A stretch of DNA of 64,000 nt, taken from Candidatus Sulfidibacterium hydrothermale (GTDB lineage: Bacteria; Bacteroidota; Bacteroidia; Bacteroidales; F082). The stretch's first letter is position 1; each line of letters opens with the position of its first letter. A program made the translations under genes and the position numbers. The notes under the pieces are model-generated. The model was not told the origin of the DNA. It was given only the letters and a program-made list of their open reading frames with translations, and did no database searches. Location of the stretch: contig NZ_CP083760.1 in the NCBI RefSeq assembly GCF_020149915.1, positions 744,001 to 808,000 on the forward strand. Reading direction: 5' to 3'. Shown here piece by piece: positions 6,359-19,331 of the stretch.

Positions 6359-9300
6359 GTGCAATACTTTTTCAAATTACGTAAGTGGTTTTTATTTTTG
6401 GTGTTGACGGCAGGCTTGTTTTGGAGTAGCCCGGAAAGCTTATATGCCCAAATCAAAGATACGGTCCAACAGGCAATGAATCAGGATACCCTTTACAAAC
6501 AGCTGATTTATCCTTTCCGTGACATTACAGGAAATCCTTATCTTGATACGCTAAACAATAGCCCGCTTTACCTGCACGATCCCAATAATATTAAAAGAGA
6601 AATTATTTACGATCCTAAGACCAATAGTTACGAATTTGTTACTAAGGTTGGGGATTTTGAATACCGTACACCGACAACCCTTGATTTTCAGGATTTTCAA
6701 AAACTGGAACTCCAACGCGAGATCAAAAAGAACTGGCAGGAAAGTGCATTGAATATTGGTACGAACAAAGGGAAAAGGCTGATCCCAAAATTGTACATGA
6801 AAGGAAAAGCTTTTGAACAGATTTTTGGGAGCAGCGCCATTGATATCCGGCCTCAGGGTTCGGCCGAAATCAGTTTCGGAGTACTTTCCAACTATCGTGA
6901 TGATCCGGCTTTGGATGTGCGTCAGCGACGGACTACCAATTTCGATTTTAACGAGAAAATTCAAATGAATGTCACCGCTAAAATCGGAACGAAGTTAACT
7001 TTCAAAGCGGCTTATAATACAGAATCTTCTTTCAATTTTGAAAATCAGCTCAAGCTCAATTATCATGGCGATAAAGATGATATTATTCAGAGCATAGAAG
7101 CCGGAAACGTGAGTATGCCGTTAAATTCGACACTGATTACCGGTGCCCAGAGTCTTTTTGGAATCAAAACCAAACTGCAGTTTGGAAAAACATCGGTAAC
7201 GGCTATTTTTTCGCAACAACAAAGCGAGACCAAGAACATTACCGTGCAAAATGGGGCACAGCAAAACAGTTTTAAGTTAACCCCGCTTGATTACGAAGAC
7301 AACCGGCATTTTTTTCTCAGCCAGTTTTTCCGCGATCATTATGAAAAAGCGCTGAGTACCCTGCCGATTATTTCTTCAGATGTGAATATCACTAAAATTG
7401 AAGTATGGGTAACCAATGTGGGGCCGGCTACGGAAGAAAACCGGAATATTGTGGCTTTTACCGATTTGGGCGAAGGACGCCAGGATGAAATTTATAACCG
7501 GTTGGTCCATCCGTTACCCGGAGGCGTTATTCCTACCAATCATTCCAACGACTTGATTCAGCGCATGGATACAGCCCAGTTGCGTAATATCAATACGGTT
7601 TCAAGCTATCTTAACGGTGATCCTCTCGGAATAGGAAAAACCCATTATTTTGTGTCCGGACAGGATTATGTAAAACTGGAAAATGCCCGCCGTTTAAAGC
7701 CTTCTGAATATACAGTAAACACCAAATTAGGATTTATTTCGCTGAATACCAGCCTGAATCAGGATCAGGTACTGGCGGTGGCTTTTCAATATACCATTAT
7801 TGGACATGATAGTGTTTTTCAGGTAGGAGAGTTTTCAGACCAAGGCGTGGCTTCTCCCAAAAACCTGATTGTTAAATTGTTGAAAAGTAATACTTTGAAC
7901 ACCCACATGCCCATGTGGAACCTGATGATGAAGAATGTGTATTCTATCGGGGCTTATCAGGTACAGAAAGATGGTTTTGTTTTAAATATTCTTTATTCGG
8001 GAAACACCCGCGATGTGCCTACCGGATATTTTACCGAAGGTCCGGACAAGGTAAAAGGGGTTCCGTTGATTCATGTACTCGGATTGGATAATTTGGATCA
8101 GCAACTCAATCCTATTCCTGGTGGAGACGGCTTTTTTGATTTTGTGGACGGGGCTGCTACACGGGGCGGTACCATACAGGCTTCTAACGGACGTATTTTC
8201 TTTACAAAACTGGAACCTTTTGGTAACTACATCCGTGATTCGGTTTTCCCGAACGATCCTGATTTGGCAAACAAATATGCTTTCGACTCGTTGTACACCA
8301 TGACCAAAGCCGGAGCCGAACAGTTTCCGGATAAAAACAAATATATCATCGAAGGTTTTTATAAATCACAGTCGGGTTCTACGATCAGTCTGAATGCCAT
8401 GAACGTGCCGCGTGGTTCGGTAAAAGTGACAGCAGGTGGTGTGCCGTTGACCGAAAATGTGGATTATACGGTGGATTATACCATGGGGCAGGTAACTATT
8501 TTAAACCAGGGAATTTTAAATTCCGGAACACCCATTCATGTTTCGCTCGAAAGCAATTCCATGTTCAATTTGCAGCAAAAACGAATGATGGGACTTCATG
8601 TCGATCATGAATTTAACCGGCATTTGCATGTGGGAGGAACCATCCTGAATCTTCATGAACGACCGTTGACCCAAAAGGTAAACTACGGTGAAGATCCTAT
8701 TTCCAACACCATTTGGGGACTCGATATGGCCTATAGCGACAATTCGCGATGGCTGACAAAAGTTTTCGGAAGCCTTCCGGGAACCAATCCCCGGGTAAAA
8801 TCGAAGATTAATTTAAATGCAGAGATGGCCCAATTTCTTCCTGGCCATTCCAAAACGGTGGGAAAATCAGGAACCAGCTACATTGACGATTTTGAAGGAG
8901 CCAAATCAACCATCGACCTGATGAGTGTTAGTTCGTGGTTTTTGGCCAGTACGCCGCAGGGACAGCCGAACCTGTTTCCGGAAGCCTATTCGAACTCCGG
9001 CCTGGATTACGGAAAAAACCGGGCTAAATTTGCCTGGTATGTTATTGACCCGACCATCTTTTATGACACACGCGGAATTTATCGCCCGAAAAATATCTCA
9101 AAAGATGAGATCTCTAAAAACTCTACCCGTCAGGTACTCGAAACGGAAGTTTTCCCCAACAGGGATATTCCCAATGGAACGGTCACGAATATTCCGGTGC
9201 TGAATCTGGCTTTTTACCCGTCAGAAAGAGGACCTTATAACTATGATGTGGATCCGGGGCCTTATTCGGCGGGAATGAATGCCGATGGAAGTCTGGCACA

Positions 9301-12300
9301 ACCACAAACCCGTTGGGGCGGAATCATGCGTAGCCTGGAAACCACCGATTTTCAGGCGGCCAATATCCAGTATATAGAGTTTTGGATGATGGATCCGTTT
9401 ACCGAAGACCCGAATAACCGGGGACAGCTGTATATTGACCTGGGAGATATTTCTGAAGATTTGTTGCGTGACGGACGTAAAAGTTACGAAAACGGTTTGC
9501 CTACCTCGGCAGAAGTAAAAGATGTGGATACCACGGTTTGGGGGCGGGTTCCTACCAAACAGGCTTTGGTTGAGTCGTTTAGTAATATTCCGGGCTCCCG
9601 TCCTTTTCAGGATGTGGGGTATGATGGTTTGGGGGATAAAGATGAAGATTCTTTTTTCAGAAATAATTTCCTGAAACTGATCAATGAGCGGTACGGAACC
9701 GGATCAGAAGCCTATAAAGAAGCTGAAAAAGACCCGTCGGCCGATGATTACCATTATTACCGGGGTACCGATTATGACAATGATCCGAAATATTCGAGTA
9801 TTTCTGAGCGGTATAAAAATTACAATAATGCTGAAGGAAACTCCCCCACCGATGCGGAAAATCCGGAGTCTTATCAAACCAGTGCTACCAATCTTCCTAA
9901 TCAGGAAGATATTAATCACGATAATACCCTGAACGAATCGGAACGTTATTTTCAATATCGCATTAACCTGGATCCGACACAAATGGTGGTCGGTAAAAAT
10001 TACATCGAAGATGTTCGTACTGCTGGAAATATTAAACTTCCCAACGGAAATGTAACCAGTGTCAAATGGTATCAGTTTAAGATCCCGATTCAGCTTCCTA
10101 CCAAGGTCGTCGGAAACATTGACAATTTCCAGTCGATACGCTTTATGCGGGTATTTATGAAAGGATTTTCGAAGCCGATTATTTGCCGGTTTGCCACCTT
10201 TAGTTTGGTGCGGGGTGAATGGCGCAATTATATGCACTCGTTATTGTCACAGGGAGAATATCTGCCGGGTGATGCCGGAAACCGAACCAAATTTGTGATT
10301 TCCACGGTCAATGTGGAAGAAAATTCGAACCGGACACCAATTCCGTATGTGATTCCGCCGGGAATCGAACGTGAAGTGAATTTCGGAACGACGAATTATG
10401 TCCGGCTTAATGAACAATCGCTGCAGTTTACTGTGGCTAACCTGAAAGATGGAGATGCGAGGGGGGCGTATAAAAATACCAGTTTCGACTTCCGGCAATA
10501 CAAAAGGATAAAAATGTATGTACATGCCGAAAAACTTTTGGCCAATGAGGATCTGAAAGATGGCGACCTGACCATTTTTATCCGTATTGGTTCGGACTTT
10601 ACGCATAACTACTACGAATATGAAATGCCGTTGAAAGTAACGCCCTGGTACACTTCGTCGGCCGACCCGGATGCTATTTGGCCCGAGCAGAACCGGATGG
10701 ATTTGGTATTGGATAAACTGGTAAAGGCCAAGCAAGACCGGAATGTTGCCATGCGCGATCCCAATTCAGATGTAGATCTTTCAAGGCCATTTGTGGAGTA
10801 TGACGGAGCCAACAAAATTACGGTAGTCGGAAATCCGAGCATCAGCGATGTAAAAGGGATTTTGATTGGTGTGCGAAATCCCAAACAGCAGGGGACCAAC
10901 CTTAATGATGACGGAGAGAAAAAAGATGCGGTAATTTGGGTGGACGAATTGCGGCTGACCGATTTTAATAAATCGCCCGGATGGGCCGGAACCGGTCGGC
11001 TTGAAGCCACTCTCTCTGATTTTGGCCGGGTGATGGTGAATGGGGCTTATACATCGGCCGGATTTGGAAGCCTCGATCAAAAACTGAATATGATCTCGCA
11101 GGATAACATTGTAAATTATACCATTGCTACAGATTTGGATTTGGGAAAATTGTTACCGAAGAAAACCGGACTGAAAATTCCTGTCCATTTCGATTATGGA
11201 AAAGGGATTAGTACGCCCCGATACAATCCGATGAATCCGGATACCAAACTGAAAGACGACCTGGATACTTACGTGGACAAAGCCAAGCGCGATTCGGTAA
11301 AAGATATGGCGATAGATTATACCCGCCGTACCAGTTTCAACGTCATGAATTTGCGGAAAGAACGAACCAATCTGGGGAAAAAGAAAAACCGGAAACCCCG
11401 GATTTATGATGTGGAAAACTTTAATTTTTCTTTTGCTTATTCGCAGATTTATCATCGCAATATTGATATAGCTTCCGACCGGTTAAAAACGTATCGTGGC
11501 GGATTGGGTTATAATTTTAATACCCGGCCCAAAAATTTCCAGCCTTTTGCCAAAAGCAAGAAAACGTCCTCGCCTTGGTTACGGTGGCTGCATGATTTCA
11601 ATGTTTATTTGTGGCCGAAAAGTCTCTCTTTCCGGTTTAGTATGGACCGTGTGATCGATAACCGGCTTTATCGCGATAAGAGCTTTGGGGATATTATTAC
11701 TAAACCTACTGTAAAACGCGATTGGAAGTATAATCGTGATTATTCTTTTAAATTTGACTTTACTCGTTCATTATCATTGGATTATGTGGCCGGAGCAAGA
11801 GCTTATATTCGTGAGCCGCAAATTTATCCGGATAAGCATACAGAGGCATGGGAAGAGTATAAACGCGAAGTGTGGAGTGAAATATGGAGTATGGGTACGT
11901 TGCAAAACTTTAATCAGTCGATAAAGTTAACATACCGTTTGCCTCTTGCCAAATTCCCGCTTACCGAATGGCTGAATGGATCGGCCGGTTATCAGGTGCA
12001 GTACAACTGGAATGCTTCGCCGGTAGCTATCCAGCAACGGATGGGAAATACGATAGAAAATGCCCGAAGTATCCAGTTTAATGCCGGTGCTGATTTTAAC
12101 CGGTTGTACAATAAAATTCCTTATTTGCGGAAAATCAATAGCCGGAACGGTAGGCAGCGTATCGGACAACGTGCTGCTCCTCAACGCCAGAGAGCCCGTA
12201 CTGCTGCTGCCGATACTGTAAAACAGAAGAACAAAGGTCCTGGAGTGGGAAAAACGATAGGCGAAGGCTTTTTGCGTTTCCTGATGATGGTCAAAAAAGC

Positions 12301-13645
12301 CAACTTTGTTTATCGCCGTACTGATGGTACCCGGTTGCCCGGATTTGTTCCGGTTCCTGACATTGCGGGTGTTAATGTGTCTAATGGTGCACCGGGTGTG
12401 GGATTTGTTTTGGGAAGTCAGAAAGATATTCGCTATAAAGCAGCTCAAAACGATTGGCTTACTTATGATACCATTCTGAACCAACCGTATATCACCAAAT
12501 TCACCGAACACATGTCGTATAAAGTAAATGCCAATATACTGAACTTTATACGAATTGATCTTGACGGTGACCGGGTTTTCTCTAAAAACTATACATCTTA
12601 TTACCGGTACAGCCCGTCGCTGGAAGAGTTTGTAAATTATACCCCACAGGAGACCGGTAACTTTAGTATTACCTATCCTTTTATTTCTACTTCTTTTGAA
12701 AAAAATAATGCGGATAATATTTCGGCTACTTTCGAACAGTTTAAAGCAGACCGGAAAGAGATTGCCGAACGCTTGGCCCGGAATAATCCGGCCTGGAACG
12801 GGCAATATGTGTATGATTCGCTGGCGAATGATTATTATCCAATGGGATATGGTTCCAATCAGCAACAGGTTATGTATTACTCTTTCCTTGCTGCTTATTC
12901 CGGAAAAGATGCTTCAAAAATTAATATTTCCAATCCGTTTCCTTCTTTCCCCTTGCCAAACTGGCGGATTACATTTAGCGGACTTACCAACATTAAAGCG
13001 GTTCGCAATATCTTCAGAGGATTTAATATCAGCCATGGTTACCGTTCGCTCATGAGTATTAACTCCTGGAAAACCAATGTGATTTTTGATCCGGAAGATC
13101 CGGGAAAAACTTTCCCCAACAGTAACAATTTTATCAGCCGTTATGATATAGGGGTGGTTTCATTCATTGAACAGTACAGCCCGCTTATCGGTATCGATTT
13201 TACCATGAAAAATAGTATGGGCGGACGGTTGGAGTATAAGAAATCGCGAAATGTGATAATGAGTTTCGTAAATAACCAGCTGACGGAGATTGACAGTAAA
13301 GAATTTGTTATTGGGATGAGTTATCGCCTGAAAGGATTGAAATTTTCCGTGGGGAATTTTATGGGAGGCAGACCGAGAAAGTACAATACCGATCTTAATT
13401 TGAAACTGGATATCGGTATTCGTGATAACAAAACCATCCTGCGCCGGATTGATGAGAGTACCAATCAGGTTTCGGCTGGTTCCAAACAGTTTACCCTGAA
13501 TTTTTCTGCTGATTACAACCTGAGTCAAAGTTTGCAGTTACGGGCTTATTTCAATATGAATAAAAACACGCCTTATATTTCGTCGCAGCTGGCCAATGCG
13601 ACCACAAGTGGCGGATTTACGCTGCGTTTTAACCTGGCACAGTAG
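6359..13645 (+). CDS. sprA: type IX secretion outer-membrane translocon SprA (Sov)
   Basis: Giant outer-membrane beta-barrel that forms the translocation pore of the type IX secretion system and, in gliding relatives, supports motility adhesin export. 2428 residues, right for the family. It starts with GTG at 6359 (preceded by AGGTTAAG), then a signal peptide (KLRKWFLFLVLTAGLFWSS..SLYAQ). Family hallmarks are the repeated amphipathic beta-strand pattern, the block GKSGTSYIDDFEGAKSTIDL near residue 845, and the C-terminal strand ending FTLRFNLAQ with a terminal aromatic/hydrophobic pattern typical of outer-membrane barrels. It is not frameshifted. A matching cargo protein occurs at 55.3-57.6 kb. 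Other type IX components (PorV, GldKLMN, PorU) are not in this window. Confidence 0.95.
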   Translation: MQYFFKLRKWFLFLVLTAGLFWSSPESLYAQIKDTVQQAMNQDTLYKQLIYPFRDITGNPYLDTLNNSPLYLHDPNNIKREIIYDPKTNSYEFVTKVGDFEYRTPTTLDFQDFQKLELQREIKKNWQESALNIGTNKGKRLIPKLYMKGKAFEQIFGSSAIDIRPQGSAEISFGVLSNYRDDPALDVRQRRTTNFDFNEKIQMNVTAKIGTKLTFKAAYNTESSFNFENQLKLNYHGDKDDIIQSIEAGNVSMPLNSTLITGAQSLFGIKTKLQFGKTSVTAIFSQQQSETKNITVQNGAQQNSFKLTPLDYEDNRHFFLSQFFRDHYEKALSTLPIISSDVNITKIEVWVTNVGPATEENRNIVAFTDLGEGRQDEIYNRLVHPLPGGVIPTNHSNDLIQRMDTAQLRNINTVSSYLNGDPLGIGKTHYFVSGQDYVKLENARRLKPSEYTVNTKLGFISLNTSLNQDQVLAVAFQYTIIGHDSVFQVGEFSDQGVASPKNLIVKLLKSNTLNTHMPMWNLMMKNVYSIGAYQVQKDGFVLNILYSGNTRDVPTGYFTEGPDKVKGVPLIHVLGLDNLDQQLNPIPGGDGFFDFVDGAATRGGTIQASNGRIFFTKLEPFGNYIRDSVFPNDPDLANKYAFDSLYTMTKAGAEQFPDKNKYIIEGFYKSQSGSTISLNAMNVPRGSVKVTAGGVPLTENVDYTVDYTMGQVTILNQGILNSGTPIHVSLESNSMFNLQQKRMMGLHVDHEFNRHLHVGGTILNLHERPLTQKVNYGEDPISNTIWGLDMAYSDNSRWLTKVFGSLPGTNPRVKSKINLNAEMAQFLPGHSKTVGKSGTSYIDDFEGAKSTIDLMSVSSWFLASTPQGQPNLFPEAYSNSGLDYGKNRAKFAWYVIDPTIFYDTRGIYRPKNISKDEISKNSTRQVLETEVFPNRDIPNGTVTNIPVLNLAFYPSERGPYNYDVDPGPYSAGMNADGSLAQPQTRWGGIMRSLETTDFQAANIQYIEFWMMDPFTEDPNNRGQLYIDLGDISEDLLRDGRKSYENGLPTSAEVKDVDTTVWGRVPTKQALVESFSNIPGSRPFQDVGYDGLGDKDEDSFFRNNFLKLINERYGTGSEAYKEAEKDPSADDYHYYRGTDYDNDPKYSSISERYKNYNNAEGNSPTDAENPESYQTSATNLPNQEDINHDNTLNESERYFQYRINLDPTQMVVGKNYIEDVRTAGNIKLPNGNVTSVKWYQFKIPIQLPTKVVGNIDNFQSIRFMRVFMKGFSKPIICRFATFSLVRGEWRNYMHSLLSQGEYLPGDAGNRTKFVISTVNVEENSNRTPIPYVIPPGIEREVNFGTTNYVRLNEQSLQFTVANLKDGDARGAYKNTSFDFRQYKRIKMYVHAEKLLANEDLKDGDLTIFIRIGSDFTHNYYEYEMPLKVTPWYTSSADPDAIWPEQNRMDLVLDKLVKAKQDRNVAMRDPNSDVDLSRPFVEYDGANKITVVGNPSISDVKGILIGVRNPKQQGTNLNDDGEKKDAVIWVDELRLTDFNKSPGWAGTGRLEATLSDFGRVMVNGAYTSAGFGSLDQKLNMISQDNIVNYTIATDLDLGKLLPKKTGLKIPVHFDYGKGISTPRYNPMNPDTKLKDDLDTYVDKAKRDSVKDMAIDYTRRTSFNVMNLRKERTNLGKKKNRKPRIYDVENFNFSFAYSQIYHRNIDIASDRLKTYRGGLGYNFNTRPKNFQPFAKSKKTSSPWLRWLHDFNVYLWPKSLSFRFSMDRVIDNRLYRDKSFGDIITKPTVKRDWKYNRDYSFKFDFTRSLSLDYVAGARAYIREPQIYPDKHTEAWEEYKREVWSEIWSMGTLQNFNQSIKLTYRLPLAKFPLTEWLNGSAGYQVQYNWNASPVAIQQRMGNTIENARSIQFNAGADFNRLYNKIPYLRKINSRNGRQRIGQRAAPQRQRARTAAADTVKQKNKGPGVGKTIGEGFLRFLMMVKKANFVYRRTDGTRLPGFVPVPDIAGVNVSNGAPGVGFVLGSQKDIRYKAAQNDWLTYDTILNQPYITKFTEHMSYKVNANILNFIRIDLDGDRVFSKNYTSYYRYSPSLEEFVNYTPQETGNFSITYPFISTSFEKNNADNISATFEQFKADRKEIAERLARNNPAWNGQYVYDSLANDYYPMGYGSNQQQVMYYSFLAAYSGKDASKINISNPFPSFPLPNWRITFSGLTNIKAVRNIFRGFNISHGYRSLMSINSWKTNVIFDPEDPGKTFPNSNNFISRYDIGVVSFIEQYSPLIGIDFTMKNSMGGRLEYKKSRNVIMSFVNNQLTEIDSKEFVIGMSYRLKGLKFSVGNFMGGRPRKYNTDLNLKLDIGIRDNKTILRRIDESTNQVSAGSKQFTLNFSADYNLSQSLQLRAYFNMNKNTPYISSQLANATTSGGFTLRFNLAQ

Positions 13646-13747: not shown

Positions 13748-14230
13748 ATGAGCGATCCCGAAAACCAGCAGGATACACTTTTACGCATTAAAGAAATTCT
13801 TTTTGGTGAAGAGCTTCAGGGCGTGAACGACCGGTTGTCAGAACTCCGTAATGAATTGTTAATGACTATAAAAAACCAGTTTAAAACACTGGATGAAAAA
13901 CTGGATAAACAAGCGTCGGATTTTGATGCAAAAATAGAAACGATAAAAAAACAGTTAGCCGAAGAAGCACAGCGAAGCACTGAACTTCATCATTTATTGG
14001 ATGATACGGATAAAAAATTTCAAGAAAAAGCAGAGGAAAATCTTCGGGTTTATGAAGAGAAACTAAAGAACCTGAAAGAAGAAGCCCAACAACAGCAGGA
14101 TGAAATACGGGCTTCTATCCAGGCGGTGAAAGAGGAAATGATGAAATGGGTGGAAAAACTGGAAGACAAAAAGGTAAATAAAGCTGAAATAGCAGAGCTT
14201 TTTGGTATGATGATTCAAAAATTGAAATAA
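13748..14230 (+). CDS. coiled-coil protein, first gene of the GTPase operon
   Basis: 160 residues, function not recognised. After a short start containing LLRIKEILFGEELQGVNDRL, residues 30-145 are almost entirely charged heptad-like helix rich in E, K and Q (DEKLDKQASDFDAK, EENLRVYEEKLKNLKEE), so an extended coiled coil is likely. There is no signal peptide or membrane segment; it should be cytosolic. It lies 39 nt before the OmpA-like gene on the same strand and so is probably cotranscribed with it, the small GTPase and the kinase. A scaffold or tether role is a guess from context. A near-consensus TATCTTTA lies about 30 nt upstream. Confidence 0.75.
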   Translation: MSDPENQQDTLLRIKEILFGEELQGVNDRLSELRNELLMTIKNQFKTLDEKLDKQASDFDAKIETIKKQLAEEAQRSTELHHLLDDTDKKFQEKAEENLRVYEEKLKNLKEEAQQQQDEIRASIQAVKEEMMKWVEKLEDKKVNKAEIAELFGMMIQKLK

Positions 14231-14269
14231 AAAGTACCGGGACTGGAACGGCCCGTTCATAATAATCTT

Positions 14270-16006
14270 ATGGCGAAAAACGATTTAACAGAAAAAGTGG
14301 CGCGGTCTATTGCCGAGAAAAAACTTAATGAACTGCGGGAAATATTTACCGGTTTAAACCGGGAAGAGCTACAACGACTGAACAGTATTGTAAAAGACCC
14401 GGAGAAATTTGCGGATGAAATCAGAAAATTGTTGCCGCTTTCCATTCGAAAAATGGTGGATGCCGGTGATATTTCCATTGATGATTTGTTGCCGTTAATG
14501 GAAGAAGCCCTGGGCGAAAGCATCCGGCAAAATCCTGAAAAACTGGCCGACATTCTTTTTCCCATCATGATGCCGGCCATTCGAAAAGCCGTGGCTGCCG
14601 ATATCAAACAAATGCTGGACAGTCTGAACAACACCCTCGAGCATGGTTTTTCATTAAAAAGGCTGGGATGGCGGCTTCAGGCATTGTTTAGCGGTCGTAA
14701 ATACAGCGAAATTGTTCTTTCGCACGCTTATATTTATCAGGTCAAACAGGTCTTTCTGATTCACAAAGGTACCGGTTTGTTGTTGGCTCAGGCAGCCGAT
14801 CCGCAACAAGAGCAGGCAACGGATGCCGATATGGTTTCTGCCATGCTTTCTGCCATTAAGGATTTTGTTCAGGATTCTTTTACCGATAAAAAAGAGAGTA
14901 CCCTCGAAGAGATTAATGTGGGGCGTATGCGTATTTTGCTTGAGCAGGGACCGCATGCTATTTTGGCCTCTGTAGTCGAAGGAAATGTGCCGAAAGCCTA
15001 TCATGATCTACTGAAAGAAACCATTGAAAATATTCATGTCACTTTTTATCGAGAGCTGGAAGATTTTGGTGGGGATGTAACCCCTTTCGAGCAGGATAAC
15101 CAATTGTTGAAGCAGTGTTTGCAGAAAGAACAAAAGCCGCAAAAGGAACGAAAACCGGTAATGGCTATTCTTTTGTTATTGCTGATCTTAGCACTTATTG
15201 GATATGGAATCTTTGCCGGAATCATGCGGCACATTCATTATAAACACCTGCTGGCCGATCTGGAAAATACGCCGGGTATTGTGGTGACAAAAGCATCTAA
15301 TCCCTGGTTTGGGAAGATAACTTTTTGGGGCTTGCGCGATCCGTTAGCGGCAAAGCCGACTTCTTTTTTGTCGAAAAATAAAATGGATAATAAGCAGGTA
15401 CAGTTTTCGTTTAGCCCGTATCTTTCGCTGGCTCCTGCTTTTGTTTTGAACCGGGCTGAAAAAATCCTGCTTCCGCCGCCAACGGTCATGCTTCATTTTA
15501 AGAACGGTGTACTAACCGTTTCGGGGAAAGCGGACGAATCGTGGCTGAAAAAGTTACGGGAGCGTTATGCTTTAATTCCGGGGGTTCAGAAACTCCGGTT
15601 AACTTTTGCCTCGACTCCGGTGGCTGAAAAAGTAAAACGAAATATTTTAGCCATCGAAAAGCATGTATTTCATTTTAAATACAATGTTTTTGCGCTCGAC
15701 AGTGTTCAGGCGAAAGACTTTGACAAGCTGATTACCGAAGTAAAGAATGTTTTGAATTTTAGTCTTGACCAGGATTCGGTTCCGGTAATTATTGTGAATT
15801 CTTATACCAGTTATGCCGGCAATGTGGAAGGGAACAAAACCATTGCACGGTATCGTGCCGAACAGTTTATTAACCGGATGATCCGGCATGGTATTCCACA
15901 GGAAGTTTTGGTGCCGAAGGTGCGGTTTATTGAAAACGCCACACATCCCTACGAAAACCGGTCGGTTAGTTTTCAGGTTAAATATGTAAAACCAGATAAA
16001 TTATGA
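14270..16006 (+). CDS. inner-membrane OmpA-like protein with cytosolic longin/roadblock-like region
   Basis: 578 residues with a clear bipartite layout. Residues 1-145 are helical. Residues 148-265 (YQVKQVFLIHKGTGLLLAQ..DADMVSAMLSAIKDF..RILLEQGPHAILASVVEG) have the pattern of a longin/roadblock-type fold, the class of domain that binds small GTPases. One transmembrane helix spans about 297-318. Residues 405-446 resemble a BON domain (VMLHFKNGVLTVSGKA) and 465-572 resemble an OmpA peptidoglycan-binding domain (KTIARYRAEQFINRMIRHGI). The last 4 nt overlap the GTPase ATG, indicating translational coupling. I recall similar OmpA/GTPase pairings in cyanobacteria but know of no established function. 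Domain calls are by eye. Confidence 0.75.
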   Translation: MAKNDLTEKVARSIAEKKLNELREIFTGLNREELQRLNSIVKDPEKFADEIRKLLPLSIRKMVDAGDISIDDLLPLMEEALGESIRQNPEKLADILFPIMMPAIRKAVAADIKQMLDSLNNTLEHGFSLKRLGWRLQALFSGRKYSEIVLSHAYIYQVKQVFLIHKGTGLLLAQAADPQQEQATDADMVSAMLSAIKDFVQDSFTDKKESTLEEINVGRMRILLEQGPHAILASVVEGNVPKAYHDLLKETIENIHVTFYRELEDFGGDVTPFEQDNQLLKQCLQKEQKPQKERKPVMAILLLLLILALIGYGIFAGIMRHIHYKHLLADLENTPGIVVTKASNPWFGKITFWGLRDPLAAKPTSFLSKNKMDNKQVQFSFSPYLSLAPAFVLNRAEKILLPPPTVMLHFKNGVLTVSGKADESWLKKLRERYALIPGVQKLRLTFASTPVAEKVKRNILAIEKHVFHFKYNVFALDSVQAKDFDKLITEVKNVLNFSLDQDSVPVIIVNSYTSYAGNVEGNKTIARYRAEQFINRMIRHGIPQEVLVPKVRFIENATHPYENRSVSFQVKYVKPDKL

Positions 16007-16497
16007 TAAAGAAAAAAGTATGTATGCTCGGCTCTTTTGCCGTAGGAAAAACCAGCCTGGTGCAACGTTTTGTGAACAGCATTTTTTCCGAAAAATACCA
16101 TACCACCATCGGGGTGAAAATTGATCAGAAACGGGTAGATGTGGATGGTCAGGAGGTGAATTTGATGTTGTGGGATATTCATGGAGAAGATGAGTTCCAG
16201 AAAATTAAACCGGCGTATATCATGGGCGCTTCCGGCTATTTTATTGTCATGGACGGTACCCGCAGGAATACCATTCAAAAAGGAGAAGAAATCAAAGCTT
16301 TTGTGGAAAAAACGGTGGGTGTCGTTCCTTATATCGTATTGATTAATAAAGCCGACCTGAAAGACCAATGGGAAATTTCGGATGAAGATATTGCCCGTTT
16401 AAAAGCAGAAGGGGCTACCGTGATGCTGACCAGTGCCAAAACCGGCGATGCGGTGGAAGAAGCTTTTCAGGAACTGACCCGTCAAATGTTAAAATAA
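16003..16497 (+). CDS. Ras-like small GTPase
   Basis: 164 residues with all five G motifs: G1 GSFAVGKT (10-17), G2 Thr34/35 in HTTIGVKI, G3 DIHG (58-61), G4 NKAD (115-118) and G5 SAK (144-146). It is a soluble Ras/Rab-type domain with no C-terminal lipidation motif. The residue corresponding to the catalytic Gln61 of Ras is Glu62 here, so unaided hydrolysis may be altered. It starts inside the stop codon of the OmpA-like gene and ends 6 nt before the kinase gene. Its probable partner is the longin/roadblock-like region of the upstream protein. MglA is an alternative relative, but no MglB gene is adjacent. Confidence 0.92.
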   Translation: MIKKKVCMLGSFAVGKTSLVQRFVNSIFSEKYHTTIGVKIDQKRVDVDGQEVNLMLWDIHGEDEFQKIKPAYIMGASGYFIVMDGTRRNTIQKGEEIKAFVEKTVGVVPYIVLINKADLKDQWEISDEDIARLKAEGATVMLTSAKTGDAVEEAFQELTRQMLK

Positions 16498-16503
16498 ACG
16501 TTT

Positions 16504-18024
16504 ATGTCGTTGCAAAAACCCGAAACCATTCAGGAAGTGCTGTTGGCCCGCGGACCGATGGCAGACCGCAGCCTTTTAATAAAAACGTCGTCCGAAGGAA
16601 TTATTCAACAGGTTTTCGGAAACCCCGGTCATTTTTCTGCCACATGGGAACCCGGAAAGAATGTCAGTGATATTTTCCCTTTTCTGGTTACCTTTTTTCC
16701 GGCAGCGCCGCTCGAGATGCTGGAACTTCCCCGTATGATCTGGGAAGAATTTTATCTCGATTTTCTCATTTTCCGCGAATCCGGCGAAGCCACATGGATT
16801 CTCATTACCGATGTGACGGCCGAAGTGGATGAAATCAAGGAGAAAATTCAAAAGAACAATGATTTTGTTTTGTCTTCTGCGCCACGTCAATTCTCCTTTG
16901 AGAATCCTTTTGGTAATTTGCATCTGTTTGATGTACTTTCGTTTATAAAAACCAATGAAAATAAATTTGTTCCGGTAGGCGGTATTCCGGCCTGGGCCGA
17001 AAAATATTATCCGGAGGCAATCTCTGTACGAAACGGACTGGAAATCGGGAATGTTTTCCCCTATCTTGAAGTCTTTTTGCCCGAGGCAGAAGTTTTTTGG
17101 GAAACGGCAGATGATACCCGGATGGAAGATTCTGATATGTGGATTGAAAATCCGGCAGATGATGTGGAGTTGCATTTCCGGGCTTTTGCTGCCAACCGTA
17201 ACGGCAACCATTTTTTATTCATCCGTTTACTCGATCAAAATGATATTCCTGTAAGTCAGCAAACGTTGCAAAAAGCACGGGAGCATCAGCTTTTGTACGA
17301 AAAACTGCAAAAAGCAGAAAAAGAATTGAAGCAGTTGCTTCAGTATAAAGACAAATTTGTGTCTATTGTATCCCACGATCTGCGTTCGCCGATGGCTTCG
17401 GTGGTGAGCATTGCAGAAATGTTCCTTACTGATGATGAGCTGCTGGCTTGTATGAACGATTTTAACCGCGAAATGCTTCATTCGATGAAAGATGAGCTGA
17501 CCCGGTTGCTGGAATACAACAACCGGCTTTATCATTGGGCAAACCTGGAGCTGGGCAATTTTAAACTGGATAAAGAAAAAATCAAAGTCAGGAAGCTGGT
17601 GGACAGTGCGATACAAACAGCACAACCCAAAACAGAAGCAAAAAATATCCGTTTGACTTCTTCGGTCATCCCGGAAGATCTGGAAACAGAAGTGGACGTT
17701 TCTCTTTTTTTACAGGTTTTAAATAATCTCATCGGCAATGCGGTGAAATTTACTCCTGAAGGCGGAACAATAAGTCTGGATGTGAAAAAAGAAAACGGGA
17801 AAATCCGTTATTATGTTTCCGATACCGGGGTAGGAATGCCGGAAAAGATCAAAAAATCCATTTTTTCCGGAGTGCCCGGCGAGTCTACCTTGGGAACCTC
17901 TGGCGAGAAAGGGAGCGGACTGGGATTGGATATTGTGAAAAAGATTGTGGATGCCCACGGTTTTTCCATCGAAGTACAATCCGAAGAAGGAAAAGGAACT
18001 ACCTTTATCATCACTGAGAATTAG
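16504..18024 (+). CDS. soluble sensor histidine kinase of the GTPase operon
   Basis: 506 residues without a transmembrane segment. Two divergent PAS-like regions (about 20-110 and 128-245) share blocks such as NVSDIFPFLVTFFP and IGNVFPYLEVFLP, suggesting an internal duplication. A coiled linker (255-282) leads to HisKA with His291 in SIVSHDLRSPMASV, then HATPase_c with N box (NLIGNAVKFTPEGG), G1 (DTGVGMP) and G2 (GSGLGLDIVKKI). No receiver domain and no response regulator gene is adjacent. The 6-nt gap from the GTPase gene puts it in the same operon, so its PAS-like regions may read the state of the GTPase/OmpA-like pair; that is inference. Confidence 0.9.
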   Translation: MSLQKPETIQEVLLARGPMADRSLLIKTSSEGIIQQVFGNPGHFSATWEPGKNVSDIFPFLVTFFPAAPLEMLELPRMIWEEFYLDFLIFRESGEATWILITDVTAEVDEIKEKIQKNNDFVLSSAPRQFSFENPFGNLHLFDVLSFIKTNENKFVPVGGIPAWAEKYYPEAISVRNGLEIGNVFPYLEVFLPEAEVFWETADDTRMEDSDMWIENPADDVELHFRAFAANRNGNHFLFIRLLDQNDIPVSQQTLQKAREHQLLYEKLQKAEKELKQLLQYKDKFVSIVSHDLRSPMASVVSIAEMFLTDDELLACMNDFNREMLHSMKDELTRLLEYNNRLYHWANLELGNFKLDKEKIKVRKLVDSAIQTAQPKTEAKNIRLTSSVIPEDLETEVDVSLFLQVLNNLIGNAVKFTPEGGTISLDVKKENGKIRYYVSDTGVGMPEKIKKSIFSGVPGESTLGTSGEKGSGLGLDIVKKIVDAHGFSIEVQSEEGKGTTFIITEN

Positions 18025-18180
18025 GGGAAATACGGATGCTTGCAAACAGTTTAAGTCTCCTTGAACTATTGGTAGTATCTCTTTTTGGCTGAATAAACCT
18101 GAAAGATGGCCGGGGAGGCTGGAAATTTCAAGCTCCAGAAAGCAATGACAAATGAAATCCCAAAAGACAAATTCCAAAAA
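18025..18180. other. intergenic spacer leading into the repeat island
   Basis: No gene seen. The segment around 18140-18185 (AATGACAAATGAAATCCC..) recurs in similar form near 22010, so the repeat family starts here. Confidence 0.5.
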
Positions 18181-19331
18181 TCAACTGTTTTGTCTTTCTG
18201 AGCGTAGCGAAGAATCTATTTTAACTATTGCCAGTTTTTTTGAGATCCTTCACTACGCTGCGCTCCGTTCAGGATGACAGTAAAAGTGTGGTAAAATACT
18301 GAAAATCAACCATTCATCACTCAACATTCATCGTTCATCGTTTCCCAATGACCAAGTTAGAAAACCCAAAAAACAAAAAGACAAATCGCAAAGGAAATCC
18401 CAAAAAACAAAAAATCAAATCACAAAAAAATCTCAAACCCTAAACGCAAAACACAGAACACAGAACGCCAAACTGCTTAAAACCAACCAATCATCCAATG
18501 ACTAATGACCAAGCGAGAAATCCCCAAAGACAAAAAATCAAATTCCAAAAAAAACAACTTCTTTTGTCCTTCTGAGCGTAGCGAAGAATCTATTTTAACT
18601 ATTGCCAGTTTTTTTGAGATCCTTCACTTCGTTCAGGATGACAGTGAAAAATACGGGTAAAATACTGAAAATCAACCATTCATCACTCAACATTCATCGT
18701 TCATCGTTTCCCAATGACCAAGTTAGAAAACCCAAAAAACAAAAAATCAAATCACAAAAAAATCTCAAACCCTAAACGCAAAACACAGAACACAGAACGC
18801 CAAACTGCTTAAAACCAACCAATCATCCAATGACTAATGACCAAGCGAGAAATCCCCAAAGACAAAAAATCAAATTCCAAAAAAAACAACTTCTTTTGTC
18901 CTTCTGAGCGTAGCGAAGAATCTATTTTAACTATTGCCAGTTTTTTTGAGATCCTTCACTTCGTTCAGGATGACAGTGAAAAATACGGGTAAAATACTGA
19001 AAATCAACCATTCATCACTCAACATTCATCGTTCATCGTTTCCCAATGACCAAGTTAGAAAACCCAAAAAACAAAAAATCAAATCACAAAAAAATCTCAA
19101 ACCCTAAACGCAAAACACAGAACACAGAACGCCAAACTGCTTAAAACCAACCAATCATCCAATGACTAATGACCAAGCGAGAAATCCCCAAAGACAAAAA
19201 ATCAAATTCCAAAAAAAACAACTTCTTTTGTCCTTCTGAGCGTAGCGAAGAATCTATTTTAACTAATGCCAGTTTTTTGAGATCCTTCACTACGCTGCGC
19301 TCCGTTCAGGATGACAGCGGAAATACAGGTA
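18181..19331. repeat. 332-bp tandem repeat array with internal hairpins
   Basis: Three near-identical 332-bp units can be phased by two independent markers: TCTGAGCGTAGCG at 18571, 18903 and 19235, and AACCAACCAATCATCC at 18481, 18813 and 19145. A diverged copy with an extra segment precedes them (marker at 18197, spacing 374). Each unit has an A-rich purine stretch and an imperfect inverted repeat: TCTGAGCGTAGCGAAGAATC pairs with AGATCCTTCACTTCGTTCAG about 25 nt later. First and last copies have the longer right arm CACTACGCTGCGCTCCGTTC. Short reading frames here encode the SERSEES/RSFTTLRSVQDD type of peptide commonly seen as spurious ORFs over this element, so no gene is called. Confidence 0.9.

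Follow-up and report, generated by a model that had tools for sequence, protein, structure and literature searches.

A four-gene operon (genes A to D) lies in a 64,000-nucleotide stretch of the Candidatus Sulfidibacterium hydrothermale genome (NZ_CP083760.1, positions 744,001 to 808,000; hereafter the window). We found that, judged by its gene neighbourhood, the missing glutamine of the GTPase G3 motif and a conserved glutamine of the output protein, this operon is a Group 1 Rup system. Wuichet and Søgaard-Andersen predicted this type of locus from genome comparison in 2014 (PMC4316618, cited throughout from the accessible part of its text) as a set of a coiled coil, an unknown domain joined to a membrane helix and OmpA, a Rup GTPase without the G3 glutamine, and an output enzyme. 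They proposed a complex signal transduction system at the membrane, analogous to the conservon, and suggested that an invariant N-terminal glutamine of the output protein completes GTP hydrolysis in trans. Since the neighbourhood has been in print since then, the claim of an earlier, preliminary description of this DNA that the operon is an undescribed system had to be given up. The system is real, conserved and widespread, and uncharacterised as far as the literature searched shows: papers from 2014 on yielded no experiment or later work on the Group 1 Rup locus (most subscription papers lay outside the search), and none of the papers listed was found to describe a longin at this locus, nor did the phrase "bacterial longin" occur in the papers searched for it. 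What is new here is the longin identity of the unknown domain, the PAS front of the output protein, further output types, variants of B without an anchor, and co-occurrence at the level of whole genomes.

Four plus-strand open reading frames (ORFs) were confirmed in the window, which belongs to a genome of a single 3.27 Mb contig. The gaps between A and B, B and C, and C and D are 39, -4 and 6 nucleotides. The preliminary description had read them as a one-strand operon for a coiled-coil protein, a one-helix membrane protein with a longin/roadblock-like cytosolic region, a Ras-like GTPase and a soluble histidine kinase; the coordinates agreed, and each of the last three proteins was borne out by the results below.

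Gene C belongs to the Ras family (Pfam, E 3e-33), and no other gene of the genome matches Ras strongly (6.9e-33 for C, 4.4e-8 for the next). It has the canonical G motifs but lacks the G3 glutamine, as do Group 1 Rup GTPases. Among 79 GTPases the glutamine was absent from 77 and present in one, the motif of the remaining one having been missed by the pattern. An alignment of GTPases (A9) took every second of 66 GTPases after L061, L075, L082 and L119 were dropped. A second Ras-like GTPase gene was seen in L063 and L082.

Structure prediction of B residues 1-298 gave a longin/roadblock core of two strands, a helix, three strands and a C-terminal helix. We compared this model with known structures by Foldseek and VIA, and longins were the best matches, which indicates that the cytosolic domain of B has a longin/roadblock fold, a fold familiar from eukaryotic membrane traffic. 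The VIA matches listed start at or near strand 1, have longin-type chains on top and share 4-15% identity with B; Sec22b and adaptor sigma chains rank high among the structural matches. Two helices, 242-264 and 271-281, are as expected of a longin; ahead of strand 1, however, the model has a short helix (145-153), and longins have no N-terminal helix. Roadblock domains, MglB among them, appear in the Foldseek list; neither MglB nor Ragulator is among the 50 VIA matches listed (VIA realigns Foldseek top chains only). At the sequence level, profile A3 of the domain (built without L029) matched TRAPP Bet5 weakly (E 1.1), and the sole match of profile A6, the ATP synthase delta chain, lies outside the longin domain. 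An MglB-type roadblock (Robl_LC7) was also considered for B and rejected, as B does not match it even at E 1; none was found in the window's genome either. Only one segment of B is strongly hydrophobic, with a hydropathy of 2.89 over 19 residues at residue 297.

B varies in form elsewhere. In L033, L034 and L086 it is 280, 283 and 299 residues long and ends before the membrane helix and OmpA part, with A and C genes beside it. In genome G026 (L019/L020) two overlapping ORFs (398 and 192 residues) stand in place of a single gene B, with the A, C and D frames open. A divergent second class of B occurs in the cyanobacterial sample described below (L188-L212; open frames of 726-1271 residues, E about 1e-37 to 1e-49); among the 25 positive genomes, more have this class than have the standard B.

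The product of gene D carries a kinase core (Pfam HisKA 1.1e-7, HATPase_c 5.9e-24) and has no membrane helix; with a hydropathy peak of 1.48 it is probably soluble. Two PAS-fold domains precede the kinase, and a glutamine is conserved on their exit helices (70/71 and 39/42). The alignment of D (A8) was made without the partial L075 row. The conserved glutamine is probably the invariant N-terminal output glutamine of the 2014 survey. In other genomes what follows the same PAS front may be a kinase, an HD domain, a sigma-54 activator or a cyclase. These output domains were read by Pfam from 20 of 63 D proteins, picked by hand; the 63 ORFs had been chosen by a rule of length and position, under which those of L086, L102 and L121 look like wrong frames and that of L082 is its second GTPase. 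Tallies list 25 of 46 families, so that counts are lower bounds and a missing name such as GGDEF does not mean absence. The phosphorelay that the preliminary description had placed at the end of the pathway is only one among several outputs. In L053, L057, L067, L082 and L089 a small ORF of its own, close to a PAS-fronted output gene, holds the type 2 PAS domain. By eye, L093 (Gemmatimonadota-titled, like L107 and L108) has a PP2C-like gene after the GTPase and no PAS module.

Gene A encodes a protein with 41% charged residues and no hydrophobic segment, whose weak matches are coiled-coil families; it is probably a coiled-coil protein.

Of 60 genomes examined as relatives, 17 had B, counting that of the window itself; all of these belong to the window's family, where the order A, B, C, D recurs. 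Across 16 family loci, gene A and the GTPase were present in all and a PAS-bearing output in 15, the miss being an incomplete locus (L004). A scan of genome contigs with profile A3 gave at least 441 relatives of the B domain, the best 80 of which make up the cross-phylum set. By title, these 80 include Rhodothermales, Acidobacteria, Nitrospirota, Desulfobacterales, Gemmatimonadota, Verrucomicrobia, Thiothrix, Mariprofundus, Mesorhizobium and a cyanobacterium. The linkage that the preliminary description had seen in one genome holds across phyla: A (by its family hidden Markov model) was matched in 76 of the 80 loci, C in 74 and the PAS module in 63, with all four parts in 60 and on one strand in the same order in 57. 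Two of the six loci without C (L062, L088) end inside B. In the wider scan of 175 loci (window duplicates, L019, OmpA-only loci and repeats removed) B stood without C in 36, many having short flanks. One carrier, L064, is in a record titled Klebsiella pneumoniae (a metagenome-assembled genome), probably a mislabelled bin.

The co-occurrence of B and C extends to genomes in which the two are unlinked. Among 395 genomes of the window's phylum (Bacteroidota, as the SprA gene before the operon suggests), those with a match to B (covering the longin region at E 2.5e-29 or better, the next being 3.9e-6) and those with a match to C (E 1e-20 or better) are identical, 14 in all. B-query matches were found in 68 of the 395, many of them reaching the OmpA end only, and the 14 longin-covering ones were counted. 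B and C lie on different contigs in three genomes (G072, G093, G190), and G313 has two copies of each. Of 299 genomes from the phylum of the Thiothrix locus, the Pseudomonadota in current taxonomy, 47 had B (E 1e-8; in G634 only a 57-residue piece), 45 had C and 44 had both; B was alone in G467, G500 and G716, and C in G728. Fisher values for co-occurrence were 6e-48 and 5e-26, with the relatedness of genomes ignored. In the samples for the Pyrinomonadaceae and cyanobacterial loci, B was present in 9 of 199 and 25 of 194 genomes, respectively (E 1e-20).

Near-strict co-occurrence and shared operons would be explained most simply if the longin platform of B controlled the state of C, and GTP-bound C acted on the PAS module of D. 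Our preferred reading, with a probability of about 0.5, is a Group 1 Rup small-GTPase relay in which an envelope-anchored longin platform sets the GTPase state and this state gates a PAS-linked output. Proteins of the roadblock/longin type engage small GTPases in a conserved orientation, mainly as guanine nucleotide exchange factors (GEFs) and occasionally as GTPase-activating proteins (GAPs) (PMC10933270, accessible part). By analogy with such dimers, the longin domain of B, probably dimeric itself, would bind C and serve as its scaffold and as its GEF, its GAP or both, while the periplasmic part of B and protein A would fix or tune the platform at the envelope. GTP-loaded C would then dock on the PAS module of D and change its output, here histidine autophosphorylation, and the conserved exit-helix glutamine may complete GTP hydrolysis on C in trans. 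We infer the GEF or GAP role, the dimer state, the direction of signalling and the role of A.

Several results weigh against this relay. The model of B 1-298 has a predicted template-modelling score (pTM) of 0.54. Mean-field direct coupling analysis of B and C (139 pairs, effective 115) gave no interpretable patch: the summed top-10 score of 9.60 exceeded the values of 30 random pairings (at most 7.85), which do not keep relatedness, whereas the best single score (1.351) fell below the best random one (1.359), and the top pairs include C positions 8, 9 and 56, which are probably buried. The PAS module was not found in 17 of the 80 cross-phylum loci; among these, at least L107 and L108 have a gene for a PP2C phosphatase, free of the module, in the position following C (Pfam). 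At the envelope end, the usual OmpA aspartate site is Asp in 58 of 75 cross-phylum relatives and S514 in the window, and B of L033, L034 and L086 lacks the OmpA part altogether.

The last points bear on the cell-wall input that the preliminary description had proposed. The aspartate and arginine of OmpA-like domains contact meso-diaminopimelate (mDAP) of peptidoglycan. OmpA was matched at 1e-3 in 67 of 81 aligned B proteins, and sensing of peptidoglycan by B is plausible for many relatives. For the window's own B it is doubtful, because the OmpA match is below threshold (E 0.026; 15.3 bits, Pfam cut-off 27.2), serine stands at the aspartate site and B can occur without an OmpA part. In 16 aligned family members, the window included, that site is Ser in 15 and Asn in one, and the arginine is kept.

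We considered three other explanations. Signalling could run in the reverse direction, as in a conservon, with the PAS-kinase D as the sensor that sets C, and C as the output acting on the B/A envelope complex (position, polarity or envelope organisation). PAS domains commonly act as sensors. Beside D in the window we saw no gene for a response regulator; the long ORF that follows is 1.5 kb away, on the other strand, and encodes a carboxypeptidase-regulatory-like domain. The 2014 authors also posit the GTPase as the conservon output (PMC4316618). We nevertheless read D as the output and regard the reverse direction as unlikely, since the enzymatic end of D changes from kinase to HD, sigma-54 activator or cyclase behind the same PAS front; some D proteins (L055, L073) moreover have receiver and Hpt domains of their own.

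A purely structural role for the longin platform, holding C near the membrane with neither exchange nor GAP activity and leaving hydrolysis to the PAS glutamine of D alone, seems to us similarly improbable. The absence of the G3 glutamine from C and the conserved glutamine on the PAS exit helices speak for it, and Sec22b and adaptor sigma chains, high among the structural matches, are not known to be GEFs. Anchor-free cytosolic B proteins, on the other hand, keep the operon, which argues that membrane tethering is not the sole role of B. That the four genes are neighbours without a joint function we consider very improbable: one or more parts are missing from some loci, but unlinked B and C still co-occur (G072, G093, G190) and gene order is conserved across phyla.

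Compared with Group 1 Rup as described in 2014, the window has all four components, the missing G3 glutamine, the membrane helix with an OmpA-type end and a conserved glutamine ahead of the output domain, and the published hosts include Bacteroidetes and Cyanobacteria. That survey left the domain unidentified and the mechanism only proposed, with kinase or diguanylate cyclase/phosphodiesterase outputs (PMC4316618); here we find a longin domain and a PAS front, and loci of this type additionally hold HD, sigma-54, cyclase and PP2C genes. With the domain read as a longin and the output front as PAS, concrete candidate roles follow, the longin as GTPase platform and the PAS module as effector. 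MglA/MglB of Myxococcus and Thermus likewise pair a small Ras-like GTPase with a partner of the roadblock/longin superfamily, but MglB is a soluble roadblock whereas B is a longin on a membrane anchor. The actinobacterial conservon (Cvn) is also a four-gene operon with a kinase, a GTPase and a roadblock/longin-superfamily protein. Its kinase CvnA has membrane helices and its CvnB is an MglB homologue (PMC4316618), whereas D lacks a membrane helix, it is the longin protein that carries the anchor, and no Robl_LC7 was found in the genome. Eukaryotic and Asgard longins (Sec22b, Mon1-Ccz1, TRAPP, CPLANE, a Lokiarchaeal longin) share the fold, and several bind a Ras-superfamily GTPase; unlike them, B combines its longin with a membrane helix and usually an OmpA domain in a single chain, in an operon with the GTPase.

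More tentatively, and at rather less than even odds, the system may be a general transmembrane relay of many phyla, in which the cytosolic longin dimer of a receptor-like protein acts as GEF, GAP or both, GTP-bound C gates a PAS adaptor whose attached output may be a kinase, an HD-type phosphodiesterase, a cyclase or a sigma-54 activator, and the PAS glutamine completes hydrolysis in trans. If so, longin-GTPase regulation would be widespread in bacteria and no hallmark of archaea and eukaryotes. A longin domain that shares operons with a Ras-like GTPase across many bacterial phyla (by title) bears on the origin of longins, the roadblock/longin families having been called probably archaeal in origin (PMC10933270, accessible part). 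"Longin/Roadblock" is already tabled as present in Bacteria (PMC4917890, accessible part), which speaks against novelty at the superfamily level.

Table 1. Features of the Group 1 Rup operon, in window positions
Feature	Position	Strand	Description
Gene A	13748-14230	+	160 aa, charged, probably coiled-coil protein
Gene A N-terminal motif			IKEILFG, residues 14-20; relatives typically xDKIRDILFGxQ
Gene A C-terminal motif			near KTDRxxLAxLF
Gene B	14270-16006	+	578 aa; N-terminal helices, predicted longin domain, membrane helix, OmpA-like end
Longin domain (predicted)	14732-15133	+	B residues about 155-288
Membrane helix	15158-15214	+	B residues about 297-315; hydropathy 2.89
OmpA-like region	15686-15907	+	B residues 473-546; S514 at usual Asp site, R529 kept
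Gene C	16003-16497	+	164 aa, Ras-like (Rup) GTPase; Pfam Ras 3e-33
G3 motif	16171-16191	+	WDIHGED, C residues 57-63; E62 at catalytic Gln position
Gene D	16504-18024	+	506 aa histidine kinase without membrane helix
First PAS-fold domain (type 2)	16519-16875	+	D residues 6-124; Gln 116 on exit helix
Second PAS-fold domain (type 1)	16918-17325	+	D residues 139-274; Gln 256 in LQKAR, exit helix
Kinase core	17347-18015	+	HisKA D 282-349, HATPase_c D 400-504 (Pfam)

Upstream of the operon, a very large SprA gene (type IX secretion, gliding; window 6359-13645; Pfam SprA_N 1.2e-198) ends 102 bp before gene A. Judged by similar ORF starts, SprA also adjoins the operon in the close relatives L004 and L005. 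It was ruled out as an operon partner, as other genes take that place in several family loci (L008-L010, L013). On the 3' side of gene D, a short A+T-rich intergenic stretch (window 18180-18320) has, by eye, a GC-rich palindromic look (ctacgctgcgctccg).

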